The position numbers were made by a program, and so were the translations under genes. 31,929 bases of DNA from a virus: positions 1 to 31,929 of the IMG/VR virus record IMGVR_UViG_3300044695_004291; one strand, given 5' to 3'. Below the pieces are notes generated by a model. The model was not told the origin of the DNA. It saw nothing but the letters and a program-made list of their open reading frames with translations, and made no database searches. This document shows, piece after piece, positions 26,774 to 28,531 of this stretch; position 1 is the first letter of the stretch; each line of letters begins with the position of its first letter.

Positions 26774-27079
26774 ATGAATTTAGAACAAATCGTAAAACTT
26801 AGATTTAAATTATCTGATATTAAGAAACCAAAAGAAATGGCTGAAGATGGTCCGTGTTGGAATGGATATGAACAAATAGGTACCAAGATGTTAGATGGTA
26901 AAGAAGTACCAAATTGTGTTCCCATTAAAGCAAAGAAAGTAAAAGAAGGTTTCCCAATCCCTTCACCAGAAGGTGAGGATGAACAAACATTCATAAGTCG
27001 TTGTATTAGTAAGTTAATTGACGAGTATGGACAGGAACAAGCCGCAGCCATATGTTATGGTCAATGGGAAAAGAAGTAG
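26774..27079 (+). CDS. Conserved small phage protein with DGPCW and NCVPI motifs
   Basis: 101 residues. Two motifs stand out: AEDGPCWNGYEQIGTKMLDG followed by KEVPNCVPI (a cysteine pair about 22 residues apart), and EQTFISRCISKLIDEYGQEQ followed by AAAICYGQWEK (another cysteine pair). I recall both motifs at the C-termini of head morphogenesis and portal-like proteins in other phages, so this may be a free-standing version of that tail. No known activity. It ends the long plus-strand structural block and is followed by a bidirectional terminator. Confidence 0.6.
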   Translation: MNLEQIVKLRFKLSDIKKPKEMAEDGPCWNGYEQIGTKMLDGKEVPNCVPIKAKKVKEGFPIPSPEGEDEQTFISRCISKLIDEYGQEQAAAICYGQWEKK

Positions 27080-27154: not shown

Positions 27155-27445
27155 CTAACTAATGTGTTTTAATTTACTTTTAATTAATAAACTACCCATA
27201 TTAATATTCTTACCTTTTGGTAATAACGGAATATGTTTTTTAAATATATCAATCGCATCTTGTTCATCTGCCTCAACATATAAAGCAACTGAATCCGCAC
27301 ATCCACACTTTTGTAATTTGTATAGACAATAAGTGGTTTCCATTTGATTGGGTACTTCATACATTACCCATCCTTTTTTTACAATAATTGGTGTCATATC
27401 TATTTGTTTTTGTTTCAACAAATGTACGGCGGGTTTTCTTACCAT
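27155..27445 (-). CDS. Unknown protein behind a structured leader
   Basis: 96 residues, MVRKPAVHLLKQKQIDMTPI onwards; a start at the second methionine (residue 17) is possible. Visible: GWVMYEVPNQMETTYCLYKL, a CGC pair (QKCGCADSVAL) with an earlier cysteine, then EADEQDAIDIFKKHIP and a basic end. It has no recognised domain. It is monocistronic, read from a promoter at about 27617-27648 through a leader of about 165 bases with a terminator-like hairpin at 27489-27520, so its expression is probably attenuated. It ends at the bidirectional terminator shared with the structural block. Confidence 0.6.
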   Translation of the reverse strand: MVRKPAVHLLKQKQIDMTPIIVKKGWVMYEVPNQMETTYCLYKLQKCGCADSVALYVEADEQDAIDIFKKHIPLLPKGKNINMGSLLIKSKLKHIS

Positions 27446-27488
27446 CCAAATCTTTTTTAAAGTTTTTTATAACTCATTTATAATCAAC

Positions 27489-27520
27489 AAAAAACCCCAC
27501 CGATAAAATCAGTAGGGTTT
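27489..27520 (-). terminator. Terminator-like hairpin inside minus-strand leader
   Basis: Thirteen-position stem with two C-A mismatches (27492-27504 with 27508-27520), three-base loop, followed on the minus strand by six T. It lies 44 bases before the ATG of the 27445 gene and would stop transcripts starting near 27611. Confidence 0.7.
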
Positions 27521-27611
27521 CTTATGCTTTCTATTTATTATAAACAATAGTGGGGGTCGTCAAGATATGGCAAATCATAGAATATACAGAATATTAAAAG
27601 ACTCCCCCCAC
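27489..27611 (-). ncRNA. Candidate structured leader or small RNA
   Basis: The minus-strand segment between promoter TTTTG-N19-TATATTTA (27617-27648) and the terminator-like hairpin, about 123 bases. Its first bases GTGGGGG (27611-27605) can pair with CCCCCAC (27556-27550) and, after a two-base bulge, GTC with GAC. CCCCAC can alternatively pair with GTGGGG in the 3' arm of the terminator (27500-27495). This is an attenuator layout, or a stand-alone small RNA. A 15-codon frame inside (MICHILTTPTIVYNK) has no support. Confidence 0.5.
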
Positions 27612-27616
27612 CTGTA

Positions 27617-27648
27617 TAAATATATAAAAAATATTTTGAATTACAAAA
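27617..27648 (-). promoter_or_regulatory. Bacteroidota-type promoter for the minus-strand leader
   Basis: On the minus strand: TTTTG (27648-27644), 19 bases, TATATTTA (27624-27617). Fits the TTTG/TAnnTTTG layout of the Bacteroidota housekeeping sigma factor. A palindrome ATTTTG-TAATT-CAAAAT (27633-27649) overlaps the -33 box. Confidence 0.65.
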
Positions 27649-27649
27649 T
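27633..27649. promoter_or_regulatory. Candidate operator ATTTTG-N5-CAAAAT
   Basis: Six-base perfect arms around five bases, sitting on the -33 box of the leader promoter. The arms match those of the larger palindrome at 28589-28607 before the regulator gene. Confidence 0.45.
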
Positions 27650-27656
27650 GTTTAAT

Positions 27657-27685
27657 AAAAAAAAGGGTGGTACACCAAACCACCC
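27657..27685 (-). terminator. Terminator of the regulator operon
   Basis: Stem GGGTGGT/ACCACCC (27665-27671 with 27679-27685), seven-base loop, then eight T on the minus strand. It ends the operon 28531 to 27692, directly before the next minus-strand promoter. Confidence 0.85.
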
Positions 27686-27691
27686 AATTCT

Positions 27692-27832
27692 TTACTTACT
27701 CGTTTTTAAATGTTCGTGATACATCTTTAAACAAAAGTTCTCAAATGTAATACTATCATCGTGAACGTTAGTTATGTATATATCATATAGACCTTCATAG
27801 TTGTCGGTCATGTACTTCATAAATTCTTCCAT
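27692..27832 (-). CDS. Small 46-residue protein of regulator operon
   Basis: Encodes MEEFMKYMTDNYEGLYDIYI followed by TNVHDDSITFENFCLKMYHE and a short basic end. The ATG overlaps the stop of the upstream gene as TAATG (minus strand), indicating coupled translation, and a terminator follows 7 bases after the stop. Acidic and helical, no recognised domain. It is short but well framed by its neighbours, so it is probably real. Confidence 0.6.
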   Translation of the reverse strand: MEEFMKYMTDNYEGLYDIYITNVHDDSITFENFCLKMYHEHLKTSK

Positions 27833-28056
27833 TACTTTCTTTTTTTTACCACCCACTCATCCAACGCCTTAATTCTTTTTTTAAGGTCATCGTCTTGTTT
27901 ATGAAGACAACATTGAACAAATACTTCAGTTACCCTCCAAAGTTCTTCTACGGTAGGTTTAACACCCATTAGATTTAAATACTCTAATGCCAGTTTACTT
28001 TGAGATTGTTGCAAGATTTTAATATCTGTGCTGTAAAATTCAGGACAATTTGCCAT
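27832..28056 (-). CDS. Small protein of unknown function, regulator operon
   Basis: 74 residues, MANCPEFYSTDIKILQQSQS, then KLALEYLNLMGVKPTVEELW, FVQCCLHKQDDDLKKRIKAL and WVVKKRK. Mostly helical. It starts 19 bases after the winged-helix gene and overlaps the next gene. The MGVKPTVEELWRVTEVFVQ part could be a helical DNA- or protein-binding unit, but no family is recognised. As part of the regulator operon it may act in early control or host takeover. Confidence 0.6.
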   Translation of the reverse strand: MANCPEFYSTDIKILQQSQSKLALEYLNLMGVKPTVEELWRVTEVFVQCCLHKQDDDLKKRIKALDEWVVKKRK

Positions 28057-28075: not shown

Positions 28076-28531
28076 TTAATAATTTAATTTAAATTTACGA
28101 GAAATTTTTGATAATACCAAATCTAACTTATCAATCATTTTCTCAATATCAATTTCACCTTCTTCTGTGAATTGTAATTCAAGTTTAACTGCGGTTGGGA
28201 TTTGTTGAATTTGTTTTCTTTCAATCACTTCAGGTAACTCATCATTCAAATGATATAAATTAACTGGTCTACCTTGGTCACCAGGTATTGTTCCTAATGA
28301 AGAAATAACATTTAGTTTGATTAATGTGTTAATACTTCTCCCAACACTACTTGGAATGATTGGGGATATTAATTCATTGTAGGTATCATAAACATCCCAA
28401 GTGGTCATACATCCAAACTTCTTGAATAGTTGGAAGATTTTATTCTCTTGGTCCCTTGCAGATGCTATTGCTGATGCTAATTGTTCATCAGTAATGTCTG
28501 TTGTTTTGTAATAAGATTTAATAATCGGCAT
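28076..28531 (-). CDS. Winged-helix-like transcription regulator
   Basis: 151 residues. After a short helical start, residues about 30-100 show a winged-helix pattern: ENKIFQLFKKFGCMTTWDVY, TPSSV-like PIIPSSVGRSINTLIKLNVI (recognition helix region) and SSLGTIPGDQGRPVNLYHLN, the latter fitting the wing. The C-terminus (IDIEKMIDKLDLVLSKIS) may dimerise. It is read away from the replication-type gene at 28771. Its own promoter (28575-28606) is overlapped by a 19-bp perfect palindrome, so it may repress itself. No integrase is present, so a lysogeny switch is not supported; early control is more likely. Confidence 0.6.
   Translation of the reverse strand: MPIIKSYYKTTDITDEQLASAIASARDQENKIFQLFKKFGCMTTWDVYDTYNELISPIIPSSVGRSINTLIKLNVISSLGTIPGDQGRPVNLYHLNDELPEVIERKQIQQIPTAVKLELQFTEEGEIDIEKMIDKLDLVLSKISRKFKLNY

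Follow-up and report, generated by a model that had tools for sequence, protein, structure and literature searches.

A probable new family of small RNAs with a conserved seed complementary to gene starts in Bacteroidota phages

Results

Organization of the locus

The sequence analyzed here, referred to as the window, comprises the complete 31.9 kb of IMG/VR virus record IMGVR_UViG_3300044695_004291. It encodes a terminase, a portal protein and a replication-initiation protein and also contains a weak match to a phage sigma factor. The promoter and leader signals of the window are of the Bacteroidota type, and its nearest cultured portal relatives are phages of Nonlabens (Flavobacteriia), with 28% identity. 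The RNA locus resides on the minus strand (27612-27489). The relevant features, in the direction of transcription, are:

28076..28531, minus strand: 151-codon gene upstream of the RNA, encoding a predicted winged-helix DNA-binding protein (predicted structure, homologues)
27832..28056, minus strand: 74-codon gene, starts AUGGCAAAU; best-ranked candidate target within the phage (loop complementarity)
27657..27685, minus strand: terminator of the upstream gene cluster, GGGTGGTTTGGTGTACCACCC-T8, separating the cluster from the RNA (sequence)
27617..27648, minus strand: putative RNA promoter of the -33/-7 type, TTTTG-N19-TATATTTA (sequence motif)
27600..27612, minus strand: 5' arm of the closing stem, GGUGGGGGGAGUC (GGUGGGGG-GA-GUC) (fold, covariation in relatives)
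27562..27599, minus strand: A/U-rich loop of 38 nt holding the conserved seed (fold)
27567..27572, minus strand: seed UGCCAU, the exact complement of AUGGCA (conserved across the family)
27549..27561, minus strand: 3' (middle) arm of the closing stem, GACGACCCCCACU (GAC-GA-CCCCCACU) (fold, covariation)
27489..27520, minus strand: intrinsic terminator, a 13-bp hairpin AAACCCUACUGAU-UUU-AUCGGUGGGGUUU followed by a U-run (sequence, fold)
27419..27450, minus strand: promoter of the downstream gene, TTTG-N20-TACATTTG, located 3' of the RNA terminator (sequence)
27155..27397, minus strand: downstream gene with re-annotated start, 80 codons (the longer open reading frame from 27445 overlaps the promoter)

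The element TATATTTA fits TAnnTTTG, the -7 box of flavobacterial sigma-A, with a single mismatch. In the transcription start site map of Flavobacterium psychrophilum this box occupies positions -12 to -5 (PMC9723704), which would make 27612, where the closing stem begins, the +1 of the RNA. Four nucleotides separate the end of the promoter from the closing stem in the window, and throughout the RNA family the -7 box lies 4-6 nt 5' of the stem.

The promoter, the GC-rich arms and the terminator-like hairpin pointed out in the initial annotation are all present on the minus strand, and the G-U pairs of the terminator hairpin fit this strand only. The RNA segment folds with -44.5 kcal/mol, compared with -26.1 ± 3.2 kcal/mol for dinucleotide shuffles (z = -5.7, 0 of 200). 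The three arms had been described as mutually exclusive; instead, the stable fold consists of two compatible, independent hairpins, one formed by the 5' and middle arms (P = 0.98) and the other by the terminator (P = 0.998).

Further observations were made in the vicinity. We rejected a plus-strand open reading frame (27567-27719) as coding: close relatives carry a disrupted frame, for example through a one-base difference in L010, and the peptide is not conserved. A 104-base stretch (26838-26941) is 75% identical to Synechococcus phage BUCT-ZZ01 and sits inside a small open reading frame conserved across these phages. The segment 28574-28662, near the replication-initiation gene, resembles its own reverse complement (a match of about 76%) and is possibly an origin-like element.

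The RNA belongs to a covarying family

A structure search across related phages, suggested by the initial annotation as a check, returned a covarying hairpin family, and portal relatives carry the RNA at the same position and on the same strand. Covariance model R1 yielded 45 matches in environmental phage contigs, 39 of them distinct and each with E ≤0.0024; 31 of the 45 had been used to build the model, and additional members were detected outside this building set. All seven modelled pairs of the closing stem show changes on both sides, with 89.6% of cells paired, in an alignment that was fitted to the structure and is thereby biased in its favour. The covariation score was 0.604, compared with 0.269 ± 0.026 in shuffles and at most 0.474 in slid controls. 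RNAalifold reported double changes for six of the seven pairs, and an unfitted MAFFT alignment gave the same compensatory pairs.

The seed UGCCAU is present in essentially every copy, the exception being L114 with UGCCCAU. When promoter and stem were scanned for with the loop sequence left free, 31 hits were obtained, which by eye fell into 24 family-like ones, all with UGCCAU, and seven others without it. Conversely, a scan for promoter and UGCCAU with the stem left free separated about 37 sites, whose stem scores were 12-18, from about 20 unrelated ones with scores of 8 or less (null mean near 6.3). Many relatives appear to use the closing stem, together with the U-run that follows it, as the terminator. 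One 57-kb contig (G007) carries two divergent copies (L159:4527-4595 and L160 around 16176), and genes starting with AUGGCA lie upstream of each.

With terminators on either side, the locus between two gene clusters could be taken for a terminator-rich intergenic region devoid of any functional RNA. A covarying stem, an invariant seed and constant promoter spacing over 39 distinct sequences speak against this reading; covariation refutes it, barring an alignment artefact, and we regard it as hardly credible. What is found at the locus is the equipment of a stand-alone small RNA gene, namely its own promoter, a terminator and a conserved structure, with no conserved gene downstream. The option of a stand-alone RNA, which the initial annotation had also raised, is well supported by the dedicated promoter, by the terminator and by the covarying family that related phages carry at the corresponding site.

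Neither the window nor any of six relatives matched an Rfam family (best sub-threshold score 28.5, cut-off 60), and the C4 model was not among the matches for these sequences. Searches of cultured phages for the RNA returned weak, chance-like matches only, and Nonlabens phage P12024S, the nearest cultured portal relative (28% identity), lacks it. No description of the family was found in the open-access literature. From these sequence comparisons we conclude that the window and dozens of relatives very probably share a new, undescribed family of covarying phage small RNAs in Bacteroidota phages.

A separate promoter for the downstream gene

In the initial annotation, the RNA was considered a candidate riboswitch or transcription attenuator governing the gene behind the terminator. 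The layout is indeed leader-like, CCCCAC in the middle arm is nominally complementary to GUGGGG in the terminator, and in five relatives a small open reading frame follows straight after the U-run. Pairing of the middle arm with the terminator arm is, however, negligible (P ~6e-12), and forcing it costs about 19 kcal/mol. Nor is the GTGGGG arm conserved, as it is absent behind the middle arm in six close relatives (L010, L011, L012, L090, L092 and L095). The downstream gene had been given a start at 27445, corresponding to 96 codons. Since this position lies within the gene's own canonical flavobacterial promoter (27419-27450), which is situated 3' of the RNA terminator, ATG 27397 is the likelier start. 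This promoter region shares about 78% identity with a stretch upstream of a gene of Elizabethkingia phage TCUEAP1. The region 3' of the RNA differs among relatives: several have no same-strand gene within 700 nt, while others have a gene with its own promoter. This variable context leads us to reject attenuation of a conserved gene for the family, and the gene at 27155..27397 is very probably not under cis control by the RNA. Altogether, the attenuator or riboswitch reading is largely refuted, and we consider it very improbable.

The open reading frames following the U-run in L039, L046, L053, L083 and L127 comprise 37-44 codons, and their products (e.g., MKKHIEDIIEVVITMVAFTVGML) resemble single transmembrane proteins. 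In these five phages the RNA might serve as a leader that controls the small open reading frame by read-through.

The seed is complementary to phage gene starts

UGCCAU is the reverse complement of AUGGCA, i.e., of a start codon followed by an alanine codon. Such starts were found for 29 of 125 same-strand open reading frames just upstream of the RNA, compared with 32 of 661 genes overall (raw counts that include shared ancestry). For 33 phages, the summed duplex energy between the loops and same-strand upstream gene starts amounted to -457.3. Shuffling the loops gave -340.7 ± 14.5 and shuffling the flanks only gave -407.6 ± 12.6, and in neither case did any of 100 controls reach the observed value.

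In the window, the 74-codon gene ranked best, apart from the open reading frame antisense to the RNA itself; the loop sequence AUUUGCCAU matches its start at 28056 with 12 contiguous pairs, including two G-U pairs. Among 35 RNA-bearing cases, 20 have a homologue of this gene that starts with ATGGCA; the homologues in four contigs without detected RNA, a small sample of probably two lineages, start with ATGAGC or ATGTCA, in agreement with such pairing. As a universal target the 74-codon gene was rejected, since the remaining 15 RNA-bearing cases start with ATGGAA, ATGAAC, ATGGGA, ATGGCT, ATGTCA or ATGGTA.

The most extended complementarity was observed in clade C (L020, L034, L120, L124 and relatives), where about 19 of 21 nt match around the start of the 151-codon regulator gene. 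The gene start reads CAATATAC(T)ATGGCAATTAG and the complement of the loop CAATATAC(AA)ATGGCAATTAG. The context CAATATA...ATGGC recurs at three diverged starts of genes of about 150 codons, two diverged homologues of this gene among them. The homologue of the window's 151-codon gene is the best-supported candidate target in clade C. For the encoded protein, a structure was predicted with a pLDDT of 82, and its Foldseek neighbours are winged helix-turn-helix proteins of the PadR, TFE and ROK types, with weak E-values; it is likely a regulator of the phage. The family of this protein (28076-28531, minus strand, in the window) diverges fast and is conserved upstream of the RNA. Together with the loop-shuffle result, the clade C match is the strongest argument for the putative pairing at gene starts.

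Other results went against such pairing. Swapping loops between clusters barely weakened it (mean fraction 0.455, 0.5 expected), and within 2.2 kb upstream the best duplex overlapped an annotated start in four of 33 phages, with 2.1 expected. No clade-level excess of flank matches was found. A gap-tolerant clade permutation gave p = 0.024, to which clade C contributed most and L083 and L102 some, and this value cannot be read as that of a single planned test because several statistics were tried in succession. Outside clade C the match is mostly confined to the seed, with flanks that rarely fit better than the loops of other clades, and contact through the seed alone amounts to 6-9 bp. Several RNA-bearing phages (L017, L038, L079, L111-L113, L115 and L132) have no AUGGCA-start gene in the searched region, and a genome-wide duplex search revealed no common phage target. 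For the loop of L028, the strongest duplex nearby (-25.5 kcal/mol) lies within the coding region of an upstream 53-codon gene and not at a start codon.

These findings can be read in more than one way. The same stand-alone RNA may mainly target host mRNAs, or a host small RNA, with a largely incidental match to phage genes. The seed is conserved far better than its fit to the phages' own genes, no shared phage-wide target emerged, several phages lack an upstream AUGGCA gene, and phage RNAs acting on host RNAs do exist (PreS, VpdS and AgvB, reviewed in PMC12197685). On the other hand, in clade C about 19 of 21 nt agree between the loop and the phage's own regulator gene upstream, and genes upstream of the RNA start with AUGGCA several times more often than genes do overall. 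No host genome could be tied to these phages in our searches: a portal scan of bacterial genomes returned no relative, and none of 25 hits for the promoter-seed pattern, likewise sought as a host or prophage link, had the family stem. We see host targets as a possible but rather unlikely main function.

Alternatively, UGCCAU could be a protein-binding or structural element, e.g., of a sponge or scaffold, for which mRNA pairing is not the function. A nearly invariant hexamer amid drifting flanks is what a recognition element would look like, and cross-phage swaps reveal no target-specific flanks in most clades. Against this stand the exact complementarity to an AUG-alanine start along with the enrichment of such starts nearby, the extended match in clade C, and the location of the seed in an open A/U-rich loop rather than in a defined motif. 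This alternative appears quite unlikely to us.

Discussion

As the loop seed is the exact complement of the common gene start AUGGCA, the RNA probably switches off translation during infection, that of phage genes or possibly of host genes. We picture a stand-alone small RNA of about 124 nt, transcribed from its own host-type promoter with the first base of the closing stem as +1. The closing stem would display the long unpaired loop and the intrinsic terminator would end the RNA. In vivo, UGCCAU would then pair at the AUGGCA starts of phage mRNAs from genes just upstream on the same strand, probably that of the 74-codon gene in the window and of the winged-helix regulator gene of about 150 codons in clade C; for most members the choice of target is a proposal. 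Covering the start codon, the duplex would keep ribosomes from binding, in hosts whose phylum does without Shine-Dalgarno sequences. That upstream phage genes are the main targets, repressed by an antisense RNA through its anti-start-codon seed, is in our view the likeliest reading, at roughly even odds.

A wider role is conceivable, though we think it unlikely: in bacteria that do without Shine-Dalgarno sequences, the widespread RNA may regulate many phage and host mRNAs through its invariant seed against the start codon plus GCA. If true, such an RNA would act as a general translational brake or as an RNA for host takeover.

Bacteroidota phages are common in water and gut, and to our knowledge few regulatory RNAs have been described from them. 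The family provides a handle on early-gene control in an uncultured phage group. Bacteroidota lack Shine-Dalgarno signals (work on Flavobacterium johnsoniae, PMC6847099). How small RNAs could recognize translation starts in this phylum may be answered, in a concrete and testable way, by a seed that is invariant across a family and directed against start codons. The RNA resembles the trans-acting small RNAs of Bacteroides and Flavobacterium in size, intrinsic terminator, sigma-A-type promoter and occurrence in this phylum, but differs in being phage-borne, in its conserved seed against the start codon and in matching no sequence family. GOLLD and ROOL are ornate conserved noncoding RNAs encoded in phages (PMC12286853). 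Those are large multi-helix RNAs, many GOLLD RNAs exceeding 800 nt, whereas a single stem with an open loop is found here.

Both sar of phage P22 and OOP of phage lambda are encoded antisense to, or within, the target transcript. They are small RNAs that base-pair with the mRNA of a phage regulator and down-regulate it (PMC12197685). The RNA described here is likewise a small phage RNA with proposed base pairing to a phage regulator mRNA. In contrast to sar and OOP, it does not overlap its candidate target, from which it lies downstream by some 0.3-2 kb in the same orientation, and would pair only partially. The C4 RNA of phages P1 and P7 blocks translation of a regulator gene through loops that pair around that gene's ribosome-binding site (PMC12197685). 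Shared with C4 are the phage origin and the proposed loop pairing at the translation start of a regulator gene; complementarity of a loop to such a start is strong in clade C and limited to the seed in most other members. The complementary loops of C4, however, target the ant ribosome-binding site, while here a start-codon seed resides in one large loop, the phages differ and Rfam gives no match. By the tests made not a member of either family, the RNA is best explained as resembling C4 or sar in its proposed action.
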